Shown here one piece after another: positions 37,080 through 47,263 of a stretch of 64,000 bases of DNA. Under the pieces are notes generated by a model. The model was not told the origin of the DNA. It did not search any database and saw nothing but the letters and a program-made list of their open reading frames with translations. The stretch covers positions 62,001 through 126,000 of the forward strand of contig JABXIS010000003.1 of the NCBI GenBank assembly GCA_013372975.1. The letters run 5' to 3'. Made by a program: the position numbers and the translations under genes. Each line of letters starts with the position of its first letter. Positions within the stretch are counted from its first letter, which is position 1. Source of the stretch: Alphaproteobacteria bacterium. Its GTDB lineage: Bacteria; Pseudomonadota; Alphaproteobacteria; Sphingomonadales; Kordiimonadaceae.

Positions 37080-37136
37080 TCAAACTCCAGACATAGTCCA
37101 CTATTTTTCAGGCTATTGCCTGTTATTGGAGTTTGA
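37080..37136 (+). promoter_or_regulatory. Hairpin that would mask the btuB ribosome binding site
   Basis: TCAAACTCCA (37080-37089) pairs perfectly with TGGAGTTTGA (37127-37136), which contains the GGAG ribosome site 7 nt before the btuB ATG. A nested hairpin CAGGC-TATT-GCCTG (37109-37122) closes the loop. Lying downstream of the riboswitch, this looks like a translational off-switch. Confidence 0.65.
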
Positions 37137-37138
37137 AG

Positions 37139-38998
37139 ATGAAAAACCGTTTCCCTATCAAGGCCATTCTTGTGGCCACCACGGCGCTTACTGCCACACC
37201 TTGTGCCTTTGCAGACGAAGCTGACGACGACATTGAAGATATTGTAGTCACTGCTGGTCGGCGCAGCCAGCCGATCAGCCAGGTTGCCAAAAGCATCGCG
37301 GTTCTGGATGCCGATGATCTGCAGGCGCGGCAATATAGCTATGTCGTTGACGCCCTCCAGAGCCTGCCGGGTGTGGCAACCAACCAGAATGGCTCCTTCG
37401 GCGGCCTGGCCACCACCTCGATCCGCGGCGCGGGCACTGACCAGACTGTTGTTCTTATCGACGGCGTTCAGGTGAACGACCCCTCTTCCGTAGGCGGCGC
37501 GTTTGACTTTTCCAACCTTGATGCGCAGGGCATTGACCGCATCGAAGTGCTGCGCGGCCCTCAGGCCGTTCTCTATGGCTCTGATGCCATGGGCGGCGTG
37601 ATCAACATCATTACCAAAAAAGGCGGCGAAGGCTTTGGCGGCACAGTGTTCGCTGAATATGGCGCTTTCGACAGCCTGCACACAGGCGGCAATATCTTCG
37701 GCGGCAGCGACAAGCTGGGCTTTAACCTGACGGCCTCCTTCAAAGACACAGACGGCATATCAGCCGCCGACGAAGCAGACGGCAACACCGAAACTGACGG
37801 CTATAAAAACCTGAGCCTGCGCGGCAAGTTGCACGGCAAGCTGAGCGATGCTGTTGGTTTTGAAATCACAAGCACCTATTCCGACAGCGAAAACGAATAC
37901 GACGGTTTCTCTTGGGATGGTTTGGGCTTTTCGCTTGGTGACAGCGACGACAATAGCACCACCGAGGAATTCAGCATTGCTGGCCGTGGTTTCTTTGACT
38001 TCTTCGACGGCAGGCTCTCAAACACGCTATCCATCGAATACAGCAGCATCGAGCGTGCAAACTACGATGGCGACACATTCAGCTACGGTGCGGAAGGTGA
38101 CCGCTTTAATCTGGACTATCTCGCGGTTGCAGAGCTTGCAGAAGGCTGGACACTGACAGCTGGTGCCCAACACGAAGAAGTGCAGGCAAAAAGCGTTGAC
38201 CCAAGAAAAGTATCCACCGACAGCCTGTTTGGTATTCTCAGCTTCAGCGGGATTGAAGGCCTTGTTCTCTCCGGCGGCATCCGACTGGACGACCATGAAA
38301 CATTTGGCAGCACCACCAACGGTGAACTGAATGCCTCATATATTGTGTCGCCCATCGGCACGCGCCTGACCGCGGCATGGAGCGAAGGTTTCAAGGCATC
38401 GACCATTTTCCAGCAGACATTCGCTTGCTGTGGCTTTGAAGCCAACCCGGACATCCAGCCCGAGAGGGCAGAGGCCTGGGAAATTGGCATCCAGCAACCG
38501 CTTATGGACGGTCGATTGAACGTGTCTTTCCTCTATTATGAACAAGACACCGATGACCTGATCGATTTCTCCTTCACCAACGGTTACGACAATATTGCCC
38601 GCGCCCGCTCCAAAGGGGTGGAAATCGGCTTTGATGCTGCACTGACTGACACCCTTAGCCTTAATGCCAACTATACCTACACAGACGCACGCGATGTTCT
38701 GGCGGATATCCGCCTTGCGCGGCGGCCGAAAAACAAGGTGTATGCATCGCTGACATGGCAGGCTACCGACAAGTTGAACACCAACCTGATGCTGCTTCAC
38801 AATGGCAACGAGTTGGATAGTTCCGGCGTTATCCTTGAAGGCTGGACCCGCGTTGACCTGCGGGCAAGCTATGAACTGAACGAAACGTTTGAGCTTTACG
38901 GTCGTATCGACAATCTGTTTGATGAAAACTATCAGCAGGTATTGGGGTATGGCACACCGGGCATTTCCACATACGCAGGCGTACGCGTCCGTTTCTAG
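37139..38998 (+). CDS. btuB: TonB-dependent vitamin B12 receptor BtuB
   Basis: The 619-residue outer-membrane receptor has a signal peptide (to CAFA), a TonB box IEDIVVTAGR and a plug with SLPGVATNQNG and VLIDGVQVNDPS. IEVLRGPQAVLYGSDAMGGV and a C-terminal barrel ending VRVRF follow. The ligand assignment rests on the cobalamin riboswitch upstream and cobO downstream. ATG 37139 is preferred over TTG 37133 because GGAG sits 7 nt before it. Confidence 0.92.
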   Translation: MKNRFPIKAILVATTALTATPCAFADEADDDIEDIVVTAGRRSQPISQVAKSIAVLDADDLQARQYSYVVDALQSLPGVATNQNGSFGGLATTSIRGAGTDQTVVLIDGVQVNDPSSVGGAFDFSNLDAQGIDRIEVLRGPQAVLYGSDAMGGVINIITKKGGEGFGGTVFAEYGAFDSLHTGGNIFGGSDKLGFNLTASFKDTDGISAADEADGNTETDGYKNLSLRGKLHGKLSDAVGFEITSTYSDSENEYDGFSWDGLGFSLGDSDDNSTTEEFSIAGRGFFDFFDGRLSNTLSIEYSSIERANYDGDTFSYGAEGDRFNLDYLAVAELAEGWTLTAGAQHEEVQAKSVDPRKVSTDSLFGILSFSGIEGLVLSGGIRLDDHETFGSTTNGELNASYIVSPIGTRLTAAWSEGFKASTIFQQTFACCGFEANPDIQPERAEAWEIGIQQPLMDGRLNVSFLYYEQDTDDLIDFSFTNGYDNIARARSKGVEIGFDAALTDTLSLNANYTYTDARDVLADIRLARRPKNKVYASLTWQATDKLNTNLMLLHNGNELDSSGVILEGWTRVDLRASYELNETFELYGRIDNLFDENYQQVLGYGTPGISTYAGVRVRF

Positions 38999-39026
38999 GC
39001 CCGGGGCTGACGCTTGGAGAGCAGGC

Positions 39027-39635
39027 ATGACAAACACCGAAAACATGGCCCACAAGGCTGCCATGCAGGCTCTTCAGGCGGAACAGCGCGCCAAAGTGCA
39101 AGAAAAAGAGGAGGCCGGTCGCGGCCTCCTTTATGTCCATACCGGTGACGGCAAGGGCAAATCAACTGCTGCCTTTGGCACAGTGATACGCGCTTTGGGC
39201 TGGGGCCACAGGGTCGCCATTGTGCAATATGTCAAAGGGGCTTGGAAAACAGGCGAAAAACTGTTTTTTGGCCGGTTCCCCGACCTTCTTGAAATGCACA
39301 CCATGGGGGATGGTTTCACCTGGGACACGCAGGACAGGTCGAAAGACATTGCGTCGGCAGAGGCCGCCTGGGCCAAAAGCCGCGCGCTGATGGAAAGCGG
39401 CGAGTATGACCTTGTCATGCTGGACGAACTGAACATCGTGCTCAGAAACGATTATCTCTCCCTTGATGAAGTTCTCGAAGGGCTTAGCGCACGCCATACA
39501 CGCACCAGTGTGATCGTGACGGGCCGAAATGCACCAGATGCGCTGGTGGCGCTTGCCGACCTTGTCACCGACATGACCCCTGTCAAACACCCGTTCGAGG
39601 CTGGCATCAAGGCCAAGAAGGGCCTGGATTTTTAG
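39027..39635 (+). CDS. cobO: Corrinoid adenosyltransferase CobO/BtuR
   Basis: This 202-residue P-loop enzyme has GDGKGKSTAAFGTVIRALGW (about 42-61), the corrinoid motif VQYVKGAWKTGE, the Walker-B-like VMLDELNIVL and ITGRNAP-like VIVTGRNAPDAL. It adenosylates reduced corrinoids with ATP. It is 28 bp after btuB and is probably under the same riboswitch, linking import to coenzyme B12 formation. ATG 39027 is preceded by GGAG. No other cobalamin synthesis genes are in the window. Confidence 0.95.
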   Translation: MTNTENMAHKAAMQALQAEQRAKVQEKEEAGRGLLYVHTGDGKGKSTAAFGTVIRALGWGHRVAIVQYVKGAWKTGEKLFFGRFPDLLEMHTMGDGFTWDTQDRSKDIASAEAAWAKSRALMESGEYDLVMLDELNIVLRNDYLSLDEVLEGLSARHTRTSVIVTGRNAPDALVALADLVTDMTPVKHPFEAGIKAKKGLDF

Positions 39636-41259: not shown

Positions 41260-42030
41260 CTATTTATCCAGCCAAGCATCTACTACATCAACATAGGCCT
41301 CGGGCAAGACATGACGGCTGTCAAACGTGTGGGTGTCTGGTCGCATCCCCGCCGCGGCAATCAACTCGGCATTCTGCTTGTCAGAGGAATATTCATCCTT
41401 GGTCGCCGTCAGCAAAAGCCACGGAATAGTGATATCGGGCGCAAACTTGATCGGCGACACCGCCGGTACATTGCGGACGGCAGGCGGTACCATTGTCACC
41501 AGATGGGTAACACGTTTGTCTTGAGCTGCCAGAAGAGCCCCCATCTGAGCACCCATGCTGTAACCCACCACCAACACTTGCTCAGTTTTCTTGTATTTTT
41601 TCAGAAGCCTATCGAGAAACACCTGATAGTCAGACACCGTTGTAGTGATCATGGCCTCATAGGCTAGGCTATCTCCCTTGCGGGCTGACTTGACATATTC
41701 AATGGGTTTTTTATCGACGGAGCGGGCGCCATGCGCACGGGCATCCAACGCCACGACCCGGTATCCCCGCTCTATCAGGCTTGCTGTCACGTCGTCACCC
41801 TGCATCAGGTTATCACCCGCCAGCCAGTAGAGGCTGGACCCCATCAAGCCATGCATCAAAACCGCCAGCGGCGCATCTTTCTTTGTTTCCGCTGATTGAT
41901 AGACAAATCCGGTAATACGATTGCCGTCAGGGGCATCAAAGCCGACCTGCTGGACATAGGTGCCTGCAAGACTGGCTGTTGTTGCTGTCGCAAGGGCCAT
42001 AAGAAGGCCCAGTATCTTCAGTTTATTCAT
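41260..42030 (-). CDS. Exported alpha/beta hydrolase
   Basis: The 256-residue hydrolase has a Sec signal peptide (cleavage about residue 22). An oxyanion segment LMHGLMGSS is followed by the nucleophile elbow VVGYSMGAQ, a likely Asp in LLTATKDEYSS and His in DSRHVLPEAY. It acts in the periplasm; esterase or amidase activity is likely, with unknown substrate. It lies 69 bp downstream of the sensor kinase, and its own upstream region holds two GCGTCAAAC repeats, suggesting control by the neighbouring response regulator. Confidence 0.85.
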   Translation of the reverse strand: MNKLKILGLLMALATATTASLAGTYVQQVGFDAPDGNRITGFVYQSAETKKDAPLAVLMHGLMGSSLYWLAGDNLMQGDDVTASLIERGYRVVALDARAHGARSVDKKPIEYVKSARKGDSLAYEAMITTTVSDYQVFLDRLLKKYKKTEQVLVVGYSMGAQMGALLAAQDKRVTHLVTMVPPAVRNVPAVSPIKFAPDITIPWLLLTATKDEYSSDKQNAELIAAAGMRPDTHTFDSRHVLPEAYVDVVDAWLDK

Positions 42031-42070
42031 TGGTCAGTTCTCCTTTGCAGGGAGAGCTTTACCAACCGAA

Positions 42071-42090
42071 GCGTCAAACCAGCGTCAAAC
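42071..42090 (-). promoter_or_regulatory. Direct repeats GCGTCAAAC, 11-bp phase, upstream of hydrolase
   Basis: GCGTCAAAC occurs at 42071-42079 and 42082-42090, exactly 11 bp apart, 41-60 bp upstream of the hydrolase start. The same repeat type with the same phase occurs at 44038-44057 by the regulator/ABC promoter. OmpR-family regulators bind such half-turn-phased direct repeats. Confidence 0.6.
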
Positions 42091-42099
42091 AGCTGTTGG

Positions 42100-43326
42100 T
42101 TATTGCCATATCAAATCGGCAATTGTTCCGCCTTCTGTGCGCGCGGAAACATCAAATTCAATATTCATGTGGCTGCACAATCGTTCCACCAGCGAAAGCC
42201 CTATTCCAAAGCCTGTGCGCTCTGCTCCCGCCTGGCCGAAACCGACACCGGTATCAATAATCTGGAGTTGCCCGGGTATGAGGATCAACTTCACCTCACC
42301 TTCGTCCGTATAACTGAGCGCATTTCTGAGGATATTCCCGACAATCACATGGGCAACTGCCTCAGGCACCGGCATCGATACATTTGTTTCACTTTCAAGA
42401 AGGATGGCGACCTTGCGCTGCTTCACCAGGTGCGCGTAGGCTTCTATACTGTCCCTGCACACCTGATCGATATCGCAAGACTGCCCTTGATCGGGGTCCC
42501 GTCCAAGCCAAAGAATCCCTTCTGTAAGCTGCCGCATATCTCTGATCGCTGTCTTCAAACGGATGAGCGGCCCACTTTCCTTGCCCTCTTCCTCCAGCAA
42601 TTCCACGGCGCCATAAGCAACGGCAAGAGGCGTTCTAAGCTCGTGACTTGCATCGCGGTTGAACTGCCTTTCCCGCGCCAGGAGTGCTTGAATACGAGCG
42701 TCCCGCTCTTCAATCGCAGCGGCGAGTGCGTGTAGTTCTCTCGGCGCGCTTTGCGGCACAGAAAGCCTGCCGCCAACATCTCCACCATCTGCCAATACAT
42801 CGGCCATATGTTCAAGCGGGCCGGAGACCTTGCGGCTCATCCGCGCCAGCACAAAAAGCGATATCAGGGTGCCCAAAGCCGCCATGCCTCCAATGAAGAC
42901 CAGGAAGACCTTTATCTGTGGCGTAGACCGGATAAAACGCCGCGCGTTAAATAAAACATAGAGCGCGCGACCATCTTCAAGCGTTGTGACATAGGCGTGA
43001 AAATGGCCATGTTCTTCCCCGAATACTTCGAAACCACCTTTATAGCCGGATTCGGGGATTTCAGCGAGAAGCCAGGCAGGCATTTCGGCCGTACCAACAT
43101 AATAAGACATATCAAGAGCGGGCAGCGCCCCAGCGCTTTCGGTGGGCGCCGGGTTTTCAGCCACAAAGCGGTTCATGGCCTCTTTCACTTGCAACTCGAA
43201 AATTTCATCTTCAAGCGAAAACAGGAAAACAACGACCATCAGCGAGAAAACCGCAAAACTTGCGATCATTGAAGTTACAAACGTGCGCATGATCAAGCCG
43301 CGCACACGCCTTTGCTTTTTTTTCAT
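42100..43326 (-). CDS. Sensor histidine kinase of an OmpR-type two-component system
   Basis: This 408-residue kinase has two transmembrane helices (about 14-36 and 142-162) with a periplasmic loop of about 105 residues rich in acidic residues and His. HAMP, HisKA (FNRDASHELRTPLAVAYGA, His about 227) and HATPase (NILRNALSYTDEG, DTGVGFGQAG, GIGLSLVERLC) follow. The start overlaps the response regulator stop by ATGA. Together with the divergent ABC genes it resembles systems sensing cationic peptides or envelope damage, which is inference. Confidence 0.9.
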   Translation of the reverse strand: MKKKQRRVRGLIMRTFVTSMIASFAVFSLMVVVFLFSLEDEIFELQVKEAMNRFVAENPAPTESAGALPALDMSYYVGTAEMPAWLLAEIPESGYKGGFEVFGEEHGHFHAYVTTLEDGRALYVLFNARRFIRSTPQIKVFLVFIGGMAALGTLISLFVLARMSRKVSGPLEHMADVLADGGDVGGRLSVPQSAPRELHALAAAIEERDARIQALLARERQFNRDASHELRTPLAVAYGAVELLEEEGKESGPLIRLKTAIRDMRQLTEGILWLGRDPDQGQSCDIDQVCRDSIEAYAHLVKQRKVAILLESETNVSMPVPEAVAHVIVGNILRNALSYTDEGEVKLILIPGQLQIIDTGVGFGQAGAERTGFGIGLSLVERLCSHMNIEFDVSARTEGGTIADLIWQ

Positions 43327-43994
43327 GCGCCACTCCTCAAGGCATAACCTTTACCACGCAGCGTTTTCAGCAGACCGTCTTTTCCAGCACGCTCCAGCGC
43401 CTTTCTTAGATTATAGATATGGGTTCTAAGCGCGCCGGATTCTGGTGGCTCGTCGCCCCAAAGCGCATAACTGATAGTATCGCTGCTTACCACCTCTGGC
43501 GCCGCCTCCAGAAGCAGAGCCAATATCTTCGATTCCTTCTCATGCAAGGCAACCTCCCCGTCGCCTACAGTCATCACCACCGCACCTGCATTCAAAGCGA
43601 TGCCGGCGTATGACAGCTGTTGGCTGGCCCGGACTTTTGGCCGCCGCGCCAAGGCCTCGATCCGCATCCTGAGTTCCCTCAGAGAGAAAGGTTTGACGAG
43701 ATAGTCATCCGCTCCAACAGAAAAGCCCGCTTCCTTATCATCAATGGTGTCGCGTGCCGTTAACATCAATATGGGGGCCTGCAGGCTTGCCTTCTTTTTG
43801 TACTCAGCACAAACATCGAGGCCATCCCGTCCCGGCAGCATCAAGTCCAGCACGATGACGTCATAATCATTACCTAGGGCAAGTTCGAGCCCCTGATCGC
43901 CACTGTAGGCAAAATCCAGAAGATGATCTTTTTCAAGATAATCTGCAATATTGGCCTGAATATCCAGATTATCTTCTACAATCAGTATGCGCAT
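43323..43994 (-). CDS. OmpR-family response regulator
   Basis: The 223-residue regulator has a receiver domain with the acidic pocket (VEDN), phospho-Asp50 in VIVLDLMLPG, Thr in MLTARD and Lys in DYLVKPF. A winged-helix DNA-binding domain follows (ESKILALLLEAAPEVVSSDT, LRTHIYNLRKALERAG). ATG 43994 gives the standard start MRILIVEDN with AAGGGG upstream. It probably binds the 11-bp-spaced repeats at 44038-44057 and 42071-42090. Confidence 0.92.
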   Translation of the reverse strand: MRILIVEDNLDIQANIADYLEKDHLLDFAYSGDQGLELALGNDYDVIVLDLMLPGRDGLDVCAEYKKKASLQAPILMLTARDTIDDKEAGFSVGADDYLVKPFSLRELRMRIEALARRPKVRASQQLSYAGIALNAGAVVMTVGDGEVALHEKESKILALLLEAAPEVVSSDTISYALWGDEPPESGALRTHIYNLRKALERAGKDGLLKTLRGKGYALRSGA

Positions 43995-44037
43995 GAAGGC
44001 CCCTTTTCTGTCGTGATCAAAAAGCATAGCCCGGCGA

Positions 44038-44093
44038 ATGTCAAACAAGCGTCAAGCGCCTGCCCAAATACGTTTCACCTTCATTTGACATTC
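44038..44093. promoter_or_regulatory. Divergent promoter with response-regulator-type repeats
   Basis: GTCAAAC (44040-44046) and GCGTCAAGC (44049-44057) sit 11 bp apart, matching the hydrolase promoter repeats. An inverted relative ATTTGACATTC (44083-44093) mirrors GAATGTCAAAC (44036-44046) toward the ABC operon. This spot lies between the regulator start (43994) and the ABC start (44130), so one site could act on both directions. Confidence 0.55.
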
Positions 44094-44129
44094 TCTTTGC
44101 TAGGCCTTTTGAAACGACAGGAGGAAACC

Positions 44130-44789
44130 TTGCAAAACAAGATAGAACTAACGGCCATAAGCCATCATTTTGAAACCGGCACCGACCGGATAGAACTGTT
44201 CAACGATCTGTCCTTCACGGTAGAATGCGGTGAAACACTGGCAATCGTTGGGCCATCGGGCGCAGGCAAATCCAGCCTTTTATCAATCGCCGCAGGGCTT
44301 GAAAAACCAACAACTGGCGACGTGCGATTCATATTGGATGGCAACATAGCCGACATACGCACCCTGCGGGCAAATTCCGGTTTCATCTTCCAGCAATTTC
44401 ATTTGATGCCGGAGCTAGACGCCATCAGCAATCTGGCATTGCCGCTGCGCCTTAAAGGCAACAAGGCAGCCTTTCAGCTTGCCCGCGAATGGCTGGAAAA
44501 AGTCGGCCTGAAAGACCGTGCACATCACCGCCCGCATCAGCTAAGCGGCGGTGAACAACAACGCATTGCCATCGCCCGTGCCTTCATCACCAAACCCAAA
44601 TTCATTTTTGCCGATGAGCCCACTGGCAACCTGGACGCCAAAACATCGGAAAGCGTAACCAGCCTGATGTTTGAATGCGCGCAAGAGACAAAATGCGGGC
44701 TGGTGATCGTTACCCACAGTAATCGACTGGCCGTGCGCGCAAGCCATACTTTCAGGCTACAGGGCGGGCAGTTGGAGCAAGCAGCATGA
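44130..44789 (+). CDS. ABC transporter ATP-binding protein (MacB/YbbA-type)
   Basis: The 219-residue ATPase has Walker A GPSGAGKSS (about 41-49), Q-loop IFQQFHLMPELDA, signature HQLSGGEQQRIAIARA, Walker B KFIFADEPTGNLD and switch His in VIVTHSNRL. It starts at TTG 44130: AGGAGG lies 5 nt upstream and the product then has the normal family length. It overlaps the permease gene by ATGA. The MacB/LolD/YbbA group couples ATP use to mechanical work in the envelope. Confidence 0.92.
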   Translation: MQNKIELTAISHHFETGTDRIELFNDLSFTVECGETLAIVGPSGAGKSSLLSIAAGLEKPTTGDVRFILDGNIADIRTLRANSGFIFQQFHLMPELDAISNLALPLRLKGNKAAFQLAREWLEKVGLKDRAHHRPHQLSGGEQQRIAIARAFITKPKFIFADEPTGNLDAKTSESVTSLMFECAQETKCGLVIVTHSNRLAVRASHTFRLQGGQLEQAA

Positions 44790-47263
44790 GCAAGATAAAA
44801 TTGATATTGGAAAACAGCATTCGCAGCCTTAAAGACAGCGATGGCCGCATCGGCCTCCTGACCCAGACAATTCTGTTGGCCTTTTTGCTTGTCCTTACGC
44901 TCACCAGTGGGTCAGTTCAGCATTATCTTGCGGACAACCTGGATCAGATGTTGGGCTCCGACCTCGTGATCGAAAGCCACACGGAACTGGATAAAGATAA
45001 AATCGCGAAACTCACCGCGATGACGGGGGAGTTGGCGCAAACTGCGCTGGCCAACATCACCCTTACCCACAAGGATAGGTGGGCGCGCGCAAGACTAAAA
45101 TTGGTAGGCGCCAACTATCCGCTGCAGGGTACTCTGCGCCTGAGTGACGGCCTTGGCACGACAGAGCAGATAAGCCAAAACGGACCCAAAGAGGGCGATA
45201 TCTGGATCGGGCCGCGACTAGCGGCTCGATTGGGACTGAACGTGGGTGACAGCCTCAAAGTAGGCGACGCACTCTTGCGCGTGGATGCCATCTTGCTCCA
45301 CGAACCTGACCGCATCATGGAGGGCCACAATGTGGATATGCGTGCCATGGTTAGCCATACCAACACCACCGCCATGCTTGGTAACGACAATCGGGCCCTG
45401 CACCGCTATCTGCTCGCAGCCAACGTGCCGCAACGTGCCGAGATCGAAGCCTGGGTGTCCAACAATATGCCAGCGGCGACACTGATCAAAAAACATGGTG
45501 GCCAACACCCGCTCTCGGCTTTCTGGACACGCACCGAAAATTTCCTGGGTCTTGCTTCTGTCCTCTTGTTCTTTATGGGGGCTGTGGCCCTTGATATGAC
45601 AAACAGGCGCTGGCTGGCAAAAATGCGCTATCGCCTCGCACTTTACACAAGCTTTGGTACACCCATGAAAACCGGCATCACAATGGCTGTTGGCGAATGG
45701 CTCGTGACTTTCATAGCAACCACGGTGGCGGCGCTTCTTCTGGCTTTCGCTGCATTTGGCCTCATCATCGGCGAGATGCAAAACATCTTCCCAGGACTGG
45801 AAGCAAACCCGGACTTCATTGCCGCGGCGAAAACAACTGGCCTAGTGTTTCTTTTGCTGTTGGCGCTTAAGGCACCGAGCTTTATTCAGCTCGCCCAATC
45901 TTCGCTGCTGTCGCTTATCCGCACCCAATCCGAGGGCACCTATATCTGGCACCGACTGGTGTTTGGGCTGTTGTCCGTTTCCATGCTTGCTGTAGCCTAT
46001 TCCGATAACTGGCTCCTGACAGGGATGACGTTGTTTGCCGTGGTGATCGCGCTGGCCCTAATGCTGTTGCTTACATGGAGCATTGTAAAGGTTGGCAATC
46101 TGTGGGGGCGCCATCGGACAGGCCTTTTGCCTTTTTCCTTCTTCATCGCGCAACAACGGCTAATTGCCAAATCTGCACAAATCATGGGGTTAGGACTCTG
46201 TGGGCTCTTGCTTTTGTTCACCATGATGTTGATGCGTGATCTTGGCGGCATGATGGAAAGCCACGCGCGCACGCACGACGGCAATCTACTTGTCTCGCAA
46301 GCGCACGAATATCATGTTCAGGCGCTTGAGGAATGGGCCGGCCAGACCGGCAGCAGCATTCGGACACTGAAACCATTCGTCTCGGCACAGCTTGTAGCAA
46401 TCAATGGCACCAAACTGGACGATTATATGCAAAAACCAAGCGACACGCTGGCTACACTCAAAGACCCGATCCGCCTGAGCTGGGCCGATCAAATCCCAGA
46501 AAACAACCGACTGACTGGCGGCACATGGTGGGCGCAAGACACTGAAAACTGGCAGCAAATTTCTACAGAACCTGAAGTGATGACAGACATGGAGCTTGAG
46601 TTTGGCGACAGGCTTACCTACCAAATTGAAGGTAAATCATACGATTTCACGCTCGTCGCCAGCCATGCTTTCAAATCAGGGGCCAGCTCAATCACTTTCT
46701 GGTTTCAGGTCCCGGGAATAGCAAGGCAGCATATTGAAGCCCCCACACGCTATATGGGCAGCATGGAACTACCTGAAACCGCATGGCCGGCCTTGGCCCG
46801 CCTGTGGCAGGCACACCCAAGCCTGTCGCTGGCACCGCTAAAGGAACTGACTGAGCGTTTCGACCGCACCCTTGCCATGGTAACAAAAGTGACTAGTGGA
46901 TACGCAGCCATGGTTCTTTTGCTGTCCCTCTTTGTACTTGCTGCATCCGTCAGCGGATTCCGTGCCGATGACAGGCTCAAAAATGGCCTTCTGATGAGCA
47001 TGGGGTTCAGCAACCGGGATTGCCTGCGGTTGAACTTCTATGATTGGGGGATTACCGCACTCATTGCAGCCATTGGCGCCATCGCCGGCACCTGGATTGC
47101 GGGGAGCCTAATTTATGAAGAGCAGTTCGGGCTAACATATCGCCCGGATTTGGTTTGGGTGTCCGCTACAGTTCTGATGATGGTTTCAACAGTTTGCCTG
47201 ATTGGATATCTGGCGTGCCGCCAAAGCCTGAAGGTATCGGTGAGAAACCTGATCGCGGCATAA
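44786..47263 (+). CDS. ABC transporter permease, YbbP/FtsX-like
   Basis: This 825-residue permease has an N-terminal helix, a large periplasmic domain and two groups of FtsX-type helices (about 255-430 and 700-815, with an extra helix pair near 470). A second periplasmic domain sits between them. The architecture is that of YbbP/DUF-type duplicated FtsX permeases. With the ATPase it may extract lipids, lipoproteins or toxic peptides. Divergent orientation to the two-component system suggests regulation by it. Confidence 0.88.
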   Translation: MSKIKLILENSIRSLKDSDGRIGLLTQTILLAFLLVLTLTSGSVQHYLADNLDQMLGSDLVIESHTELDKDKIAKLTAMTGELAQTALANITLTHKDRWARARLKLVGANYPLQGTLRLSDGLGTTEQISQNGPKEGDIWIGPRLAARLGLNVGDSLKVGDALLRVDAILLHEPDRIMEGHNVDMRAMVSHTNTTAMLGNDNRALHRYLLAANVPQRAEIEAWVSNNMPAATLIKKHGGQHPLSAFWTRTENFLGLASVLLFFMGAVALDMTNRRWLAKMRYRLALYTSFGTPMKTGITMAVGEWLVTFIATTVAALLLAFAAFGLIIGEMQNIFPGLEANPDFIAAAKTTGLVFLLLLALKAPSFIQLAQSSLLSLIRTQSEGTYIWHRLVFGLLSVSMLAVAYSDNWLLTGMTLFAVVIALALMLLLTWSIVKVGNLWGRHRTGLLPFSFFIAQQRLIAKSAQIMGLGLCGLLLLFTMMLMRDLGGMMESHARTHDGNLLVSQAHEYHVQALEEWAGQTGSSIRTLKPFVSAQLVAINGTKLDDYMQKPSDTLATLKDPIRLSWADQIPENNRLTGGTWWAQDTENWQQISTEPEVMTDMELEFGDRLTYQIEGKSYDFTLVASHAFKSGASSITFWFQVPGIARQHIEAPTRYMGSMELPETAWPALARLWQAHPSLSLAPLKELTERFDRTLAMVTKVTSGYAAMVLLLSLFVLAASVSGFRADDRLKNGLLMSMGFSNRDCLRLNFYDWGITALIAAIGAIAGTWIAGSLIYEEQFGLTYRPDLVWVSATVLMMVSTVCLIGYLACRQSLKVSVRNLIAA

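Follow-up and report, generated by a model that had tools for sequence, protein, structure and literature searches.

What are the 11-bp-phased direct repeats that stand before a hydrolase gene, and again between a regulator gene and two ATP-binding cassette (ABC) transporter genes, in a 64,000-nucleotide stretch of a Kordiimonadaceae genome (GenBank assembly GCA_013372975.1, contig JABXIS010000003.1, positions 62,001 to 126,000; hereafter the window), and do they tie these genes together? The locus spans 41260 to 47263 of the window; the genes for the hydrolase, a sensor kinase and the regulator lie on the minus strand, and those for a YbbA-like ATPase and a YbbP-like permease are divergent from them. 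An initial annotation, made from the sequence alone, had proposed a regulon of regulator-kinase, ABC genes and hydrolase. Comparison of sequences indicates that the repeats are a conserved operator, and we put at roughly 0.82 the probability that it is the operator of the neighbouring regulator and controls the regulator's own operon, a second YbbAP-like transporter, the hydrolase and a CPBP intramembrane protease. The predicted regulon is well supported by conservation, by a paralogous transporter that lacks the box in 14 of 14 genomes, and by covariation of the half-site with the recognition helix of the regulator; the box itself, its spacing and its inheritance together with the cluster are seen directly in the compared sequences.

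Three promoters with one layout

The repeats are present where the initial annotation had placed them: GCGTCAAAC at 42071-42079 and again at 42082-42090, with an 11-bp phase, and GTCAAAC (44040-44046) and GTCAAGC (44051-44057) with the same phase. Toward the ABC genes it had described an inverted copy; the sequence is there (TTTGACATTC, 44084-44093), but it belongs to a third complete box, of which it forms the downstream half and which faces the ABC genes. The three promoters have in common the arrangement TTTGACR-N4-TTTGACR, 10 nt and a -10 hexamer, with half-sites of 7 bp in 11-bp phase:

42072..42089, minus strand: predicted hydrolase operator box, TTTGACG-ctgg-TTTGACG (perfect match and conservation)
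42056..42061, minus strand: predicted hydrolase -10 hexamer, TAAAGC, 10 nt past the box (spacing kept in relatives)
44039..44056, minus strand: predicted regulator-kinase operator box, CTTGACG-cttg-TTTGACA (pattern match, relatives)
44023..44028, minus strand: predicted regulator-kinase -10 hexamer, TATGCT, 10 nt past the box
44073..44090, plus strand: predicted ABC operator box, TTTCACC-ttca-TTTGACA (pattern match, relatives)
44101..44106, plus strand: predicted ABC -10 hexamer, TAGGCC, 10 nt past the box

The spacers between box and hexamer are cttcggttgg (hydrolase), ttcgccgggc (regulator) and ttctctttgc (ybbA). The same layout is found with PhoB-type activators, which replace the -35 box in class II activation, the pho box overlapping the -35 position. 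Likeness to PhoB extends to the direct 7-bp repeats, the 11-bp phase and the distance of about 10 nt to the -10 hexamer; the half-site here, TTTGACR or TTTCACR, is a different one, as are the regulator and the regulon.

Conservation among relatives

The close-relative set comes from a permease search of 59 genomes, namely that of the window (G000, 3.6 Mb) and 58 relatives. A YbbP relative of some kind is found in 58 of the 59, and 15 genomes besides G000 have an orthologue of at least 43% identity; all 15 loci were compared with the window. The regulator gene is divergent beside ybbA in 12 of the 15, and in 10 of those 12 the hydrolase gene comes behind the kinase gene (not in L072 and L082; cut by the contig end in L071). 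In relatives with the same cluster the repeats are kept at all three promoters: the box stands before both the regulator and ybbA in 12 of 12 divergent loci and in the window, with 12 to 14 of the 14 specified positions, and before the hydrolase at 11 of 11 in-locus promoters (window and 10 close relatives). A few of the -10 hexamers in close relatives start with CA or GA, not TA. In G005, the genome of L072, the hydrolase gene is located elsewhere (L121), with the box still upstream. Two loci in which the regulator gene is downstream and encodes a helix of the gammaproteobacterial type (L084 and L085; see below) have the ybbA boxes GTTCACA-N4-TTTCACA and TTTCACA-N4-TTTCACA, and a Sphingopyxis locus (L075) has a ybbA box, the best regulator match elsewhere in that genome being preceded by TTTGACG-caaa-TTTGATC.

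G005 also has a decayed copy of the hydrolase gene (L121 near 2497; G005:C6:63096), the frame of which stops after 23 codons and the operator box of which is intact; about 14 kb separate it from the intact gene copy.

The distant set was collected by a pattern-based scan of one genome per species in 84,980 species; the best 80 of 109 relatives were kept, including Sphingomonadaceae, Colwellia, Shewanella, Alteromonas, Pseudoalteromonas and Microbulbifer. It overlaps the close set in some assemblies, and the ybbA counts use only these 80 and the window, less three loci with no ybbA match or without 150 nt upstream (n = 78). The ybbA box is found in 70 of the 78 alpha- and gammaproteobacterial loci, with TA at N10 in 66. 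Half-site spacers of 0-3 and 5-15 nt occur in at most two loci each, and composition shuffles average 0.04; 58 loci have a TAnnnY hexamer at N10, and no more than one has it at N7-N9 or N11-N14. The hydrolase box is present in all five Sphingomonadaceae loci L149-L153. In an Altererythrobacter locus (L210:1333-2094) the hydrolase gene follows ybbP, with TTTGACA-N4-TTTGACA upstream and CA, not TA, at N10.

A search by motif alone

In the whole 3.6-Mb genome of the window perfect boxes are found at only two places, before the hydrolase gene and before a gene for a CPBP protease; box plus -10 hexamer with one mismatch gives four sites, before the hydrolase, the regulator, the CPBP protease and a lemA-like gene. 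The motif-only search was extended to 30 genomes, 16 with the cluster and 14 without it. The cluster-positive genomes hold 20 zero-mismatch sites (8 at the hydrolase, 6 at CPBP, 5 at the regulator and 1 at the decayed hydrolase copy) and the cluster-negative genomes one, inside an open reading frame (ORF). With up to one mismatch the numbers are 41 in cluster-positive genomes, as compared with 18 in the reversed control, and 9 in cluster-negative genomes as compared with 20. Hydrolase orthologues (at least 49% identity) are distributed in the same way, in 12 of 16 cluster-positive genomes and in no cluster-negative one (0 of 14), if a 29% match in G017 is left out of the count.

The CPBP intramembrane protease appears to be a further member of the regulon, found by motif alone. 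The protein matches PF02517 with 51.6 bits (cut-off 22.4), and its motif EEALFR fits the EExxxR of the Rce1-like domain. We compared CPBP relatives of at least 46% identity, taking the best copy per genome and scoring a box when at least 13 of 14 positions matched and TA stood at N10. By this measure 9 of 10 cluster-positive genomes have the box and none of the 6 cluster-negative ones does, the best cluster-negative site (G017) having 12 of 14 positions and no TA. In a tree of 18 CPBP sequences, with several forks open and four distant paralogues dropped, box-bearing members are spread over several subclades, and that of G003 falls among box-less relatives. The CPBP gene comes straight after ybbP, with no box of its own, in L152, and adjoins the hydrolase gene in L200. 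The predicted regulon appears to reach much further than first proposed: that proposal had the core right but overlooked the CPBP gene, half of the ABC-facing box and the constancy of the 10-nt gap before the -10 hexamer.

Several other sites were rejected as members. The lemA-like gene has a one-mismatch box in G000, which we regard as due to chance, because the box was missing at all three close orthologues found in a search of 12 other genomes (G006, G014, G010). A one-mismatch site before a 348-amino-acid protein (L126), common to G012 and G016, has an altered form in cluster-negative G004 and was not counted. The remaining one-mismatch sites were likewise put down to chance: L127, L128, L129 and L131 lie inside ORFs, L130 and L132 before no recognisable gene, and G004:C15, G008:C115, G023:C2, G025:C1 and G009:C252 were also set aside.

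Operator and regulator change together

The recognition helix of the window's regulator is SGALRTHIYNLRK. For 62 loci in which both regulator and box are found, we compared the helix with the downstream half-site. Regulators with the helix R-T-H-x-Y-N go with TTTGAC in 16 of 16 loci, and those with H-x-Y-Q go with TTTCAC in 44 of 46; the remaining two, from Microbulbifer, have the intermediate helix RTHIYQ and the hybrid box TTTCACA-N4-YTTGACG. Fisher's test for helix against half-site gives P = 5.6e-13, which is not a count of events, because the loci share descent. An informative single case is that of G025, which is of the same family as the window: it has a helix of the gammaproteobacterial type (RSHIYQ) and a ybbA box of the same type, and the box before its CPBP gene, a gene of the alphaproteobacterial set, reads GTTCACA-N4-TTTCACA. 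Half-site and recognition helix change together, TTTGAC with THIYN and TTTCAC with SHIYQ. A plasmid search with the regulator returned 77 records, all of them relatives of less than 60% identity.

The gammaproteobacterial version

Gene-by-gene reading of three loci (L162, L166 and L157, the last from K. sediminis) gives the order ybbA-ybbP-DJ-1/PfpI-regulator-kinase, and many other loci have the same spacing; L154 lacks a DJ-1 gene at this place. In gammaproteobacterial loci the DJ-1/PfpI gene takes the place of the hydrolase gene. Two representatives match PF01965 with 65.0 and 59.0 bits (cut-off 26.6). In the genomes of 11 Gammaproteobacteria and of K. sediminis, the TTTCACR box has 46 matches with one mismatch or none, and the reversed control has 3. 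Of the 46 matches 23 are exact: 11 stand before ybbA, 6 before the gene for a secreted protein of about 250 amino acids, 3 before one for DJ-1/PfpI and 3 before one for a PDZ-domain aspartic protease, the genes being assigned by visible likeness to representatives scanned with Pfam.

The secreted protein (L183:11757-12518 and 18 more sequences) is found in marine Gammaproteobacteria and has the motif ENEEG; it has no Pfam match. Its predicted structure (predicted local distance difference test, pLDDT, 82.6; predicted template-modelling score, pTM, 0.75) has LolA-superfamily, DUF1329 and LolB proteins as top structural matches, with Z-scores of 8.4-8.8 for the top four and a root-mean-square deviation of 4.6-5.2 over 175-182 residues. 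Judged from the model, the LolA-like match is moderate, barely above the level of unrelated folds, and suggests a carrier of hydrophobic ligands.

In L168 (3034-4122), L265, L275 and L287 there is a DJ-1/PfpI protein of a second type, which has a hydrophobic stretch at its N-terminus and a box of its own; in L168, L265 and L287 its gene lies near that of the secreted protein.

The gene set and a second YbbAP

The genes of the window cluster are as follows:

41260..42030, minus strand: secreted alpha/beta hydrolase, 256 amino acids (Pfam PF00561, 54.8 bits)
42100..43326, minus strand: sensor histidine kinase, 408 amino acids, with a short periplasmic domain (PF00512, PF02518)
43323..43994, minus strand: OmpR/PhoB-family response regulator, 223 amino acids, ATG at 43994 (PF00072, PF00486)
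44130..44789, plus strand: YbbA-like ATPase, 219 amino acids, TTG start after AGGAGG (PF00005)
44786..47263, plus strand: YbbP-like FtsX-family permease, 825 amino acids (PDB 9ge6, NF041854)

The hydrolase, as judged by eye, has a signal-peptide-like N-terminus and a GYSMG motif. The regulator matches PF00072 with 85.6 bits and PF00486 (Trans_reg_C winged helix) with 63.4 bits, each above its cut-off, whereas the ATPase scores 201.3 bits with the LolD profile and 189.6 bits with the YbbA profile, each below its cut-off. Almost the entire permease can be aligned with E. coli YbbP (9ge6, chain A; residues 30-792 to 25-771, E = 6.3e-18), and 9ge6 is its sole PDB sequence match at a threshold of E = 0.001. 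The initial annotation had left the choice between exporter and extractor; the latter fits better, and the former less well, because the permease is YbbP-like.

E. coli YbbAP-TesA (PDB 9GE6-9GE8; PMC12646458) is described as a type VII ABC transporter with a long FtsX-family permease and a YbbA-type ATPase, near which a periplasmic hydrolase of esterase or lipase type is encoded; both features recur here. It was characterised only in 2025; according to its authors, study was delayed because knockouts show no distinctive phenotype, and its natural substrates are not fully clear. The term "two-component" does not appear in the main text of that report (PMC12646458). The cluster studied here differs in having an alpha/beta hydrolase (PF00561; elsewhere DJ-1/PfpI) and not a GDSL-type TesA next to the transporter, and in having its own two-component system and operator.

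Most cluster-positive genomes contain, in addition, another YbbAP that is distant in sequence. In 14 of the 16 (all except G006 and G057), which served as a control, this YbbAP adjoins in every case a divergent GDSL gene of the TesA type, the motif lying 197-318 nt from the ybbA start; none of the 14 has the box, whether in the 250 nt before ybbA or elsewhere in the 6.5 kb compared. With a TesA-linked, box-less YbbAP present in the same genomes, the ABC genes of the window are a second YbbAP under separate control.

LolCDE-LolA is a further system for comparison, in which an ABC transporter extracts its cargo from the inner membrane. The gammaproteobacterial regulons resemble it in holding a secreted protein with a LolA/LolB/DUF1329-like fold; lipoprotein cargo is a feature of LolCDE, and the likeness of fold here is moderate. 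A search of open-licence literature, by titles and abstract openings and with subscription papers and preprints outside its scope, found no account of this two-component system or operator.

Convergent with the hydrolase gene is one for a PhoD-like phosphatase (PF09423, 39702-41174, plus strand); no box with two mismatches or fewer lies near its start. Farther out, at 37133-39635, are a 621-amino-acid ORF that looks like a TonB-dependent receptor and a 248-amino-acid ORF that we take from its sequence to resemble cob(I)alamin adenosyltransferase.

The kinase sensor and the hydrolase leader

In the structural model of the kinase (mean pLDDT 80, pTM 0.45) two long helices flank a beta-rich domain, at about residues 60-130. 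Within the short periplasmic domain E100, H108 and H110 are invariant in 20 aligned kinases, and these perhaps form a ligand or metal site. The fold matches listed by Foldseek are to kinase cores or whole kinases, with low template-modelling scores, and a PDB profile search places the cores of QseC, HprS and CpxA near the top. Among the Foldseek and PDB profile matches listed there is no relative of the sensor domain, which does not rule one out.

The hydrolase leader carries one more feature:

42039..42055, minus strand: inverted repeat TCTCC-N7-GGAGA between the -10 hexamer and the start codon, with the Shine-Dalgarno sequence in its 3' arm

Similar pairing, with stems of 4-8 bp, is found in 17 of 17 box-bearing hydrolase leaders (window, L071-L083, L121, L149-L153): a CTCC-type stretch right after the -10 hexamer is complementary to the Shine-Dalgarno GGAG, and the outer pair varies among G-C, G-U, A-U and T-A. 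Single-sequence shuffle tests on the 17 leaders are uneven (P from 0.002 to 0.47), and the MAFFT alignment put the hairpin arms out of register. The pairing could be a 5' hairpin that masks the ribosome site, or just a discriminator element; the 5' arm lies perhaps upstream of the transcript.

Points against the regulon and alternative explanations

Several observations weigh against the regulon as described. Within the window by itself the box is scarcely commoner than expected: with up to two mismatches the window has 5 matches against a shuffle mean of 1.77, and 5 is reached in 3 of 100 shuffles; the looser core TTGAC-N6-TTGAC, with up to one mismatch, shows no excess there (3, with 3.61 expected). 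In the whole genome, a search of which the initial annotation had suggested, box plus -10 hexamer at up to two mismatches gives 7 sites, close to the 5 of the reversed control. We therefore regard the repeats as a real feature because they are conserved among relatives, not because they are rare in the window; the counts, moreover, are not independent events, as the loci share descent. Four cluster-positive genomes (G019, G023, G025, G057) have no hydrolase, six (G006, G010, G019, G023, G027, G057) have no CPBP relative, and the box is missing at the CPBP gene of G028 and at the second CPBP copy of G005 despite the presence of the cluster. The pattern box is also missing in 8 of the 78 ybbA regions (L137, L138, L139, L144, L156, L174, L177 and L193), which include Sphingopyxis-type and Luteimonas loci and one near-match (L193); the regulators have a different helix in L139 and L144 and a divergent one in L138. 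Finally, the permease reaches 154 bits with NF041854 (E = 4.1e-45; cut-off 999 bits), which makes it a YbbP relative and not an equivalog.

Among other explanations, one that we think unlikely takes the transporter for a MacB- or Bce-like exporter of drugs or peptides, or for the partner of a sensor, with the hydrolase acting separately on a soluble compound. In its favour, the kinase core also resembles that of BceS (8g3a), and in Bce-type modules such as BceRS-BceAB a two-component system goes with an FtsX-family permease. Against it, BceS-like kinases have practically no extracytoplasmic domain, and the kinase here, according to the model, has a periplasmic one; YbbP homologues recur near genes for secreted hydrolases or DJ-1/PfpI proteins, the gene set includes a hydrolase, and the permease, as noted, has YbbP as its sole PDB match, nearly from end to end.

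It is quite improbable that the regulator is a repressor or autoregulator only, and that the hydrolase and CPBP sites belong to another OmpR-family regulator of the same specificity. Autoregulation is common at divergent promoters; the boxes at the hydrolase and CPBP genes, however, follow the presence of the cluster, their distance to the -10 hexamer fits the class II activator layout known for PhoB, from which we infer activation rather than repression, and the regulator is the sole protein in G000 at E <= 1e-40. It is highly improbable that the boxes are no more than sigma-70 -35 elements of the usual kind, doubled by chance and served by no dedicated regulator: TTTGACA contains the -35 consensus TTGACA, but the box ends 10 nt, not 16-18, from the -10 hexamer in 3 of 3 window promoters and 66 of 78 ybbA regions, the 11-bp phase is conserved together with the two half-sites, TTTCACA, the half-site in Gammaproteobacteria, makes a poor -35, the half-site follows the regulator helix, and TesA-linked ybbA promoters have no box.

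Proposed mechanism and significance

If the neighbouring regulator has its operator in these repeats, activation of the kinase would lead to phosphorylation of the regulator, which would bind TTTSACR-N4-TTTSACR as a tandem dimer in the -35 position and activate RNA polymerase at the -10 hexamer 10 nt downstream. Its own operon, the second YbbAP-like transporter, the secreted alpha/beta hydrolase and the remote CPBP intramembrane protease would be switched on together. By analogy, the window set may represent an inducible extractor with the alpha/beta hydrolase in the role of TesA, possibly in a complex with the transporter. The signal would be membrane damage, and the response to envelope damage or antimicrobials that had first been suggested is plausible.

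Because the box is shared at the same place of the promoter and recurs with a matching regulator in many marine bacteria, it is very probable that these genes make up a single switchable system for the care of the membrane. A broader proposal is possible, if rather doubtful: a widespread inducible response of the inner membrane, of the type "extract and destroy" and not described so far, in which the cue for the dedicated two-component system is a damaged lipid or a hydrophobic toxicant lodged in the membrane. What it switches on would be a second YbbAP-type extractor with an exchangeable enzyme partner (alpha/beta hydrolase or DJ-1/PfpI), together with CPBP and retropepsin-PDZ proteases and a LolA-like carrier.

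The split between alpha- and gammaproteobacterial versions is a natural experiment in the coevolution of operator and regulator, and gives a testable two-residue prediction. The alpha/beta hydrolase, DJ-1/PfpI, the CPBP protease and the LolA-like protein are new candidate partners for YbbAP-type systems. A dedicated sensor with a small and sharply defined regulon also provides a handle on these systems, as the activator of the kinase would probably reveal the class of compounds that they remove.

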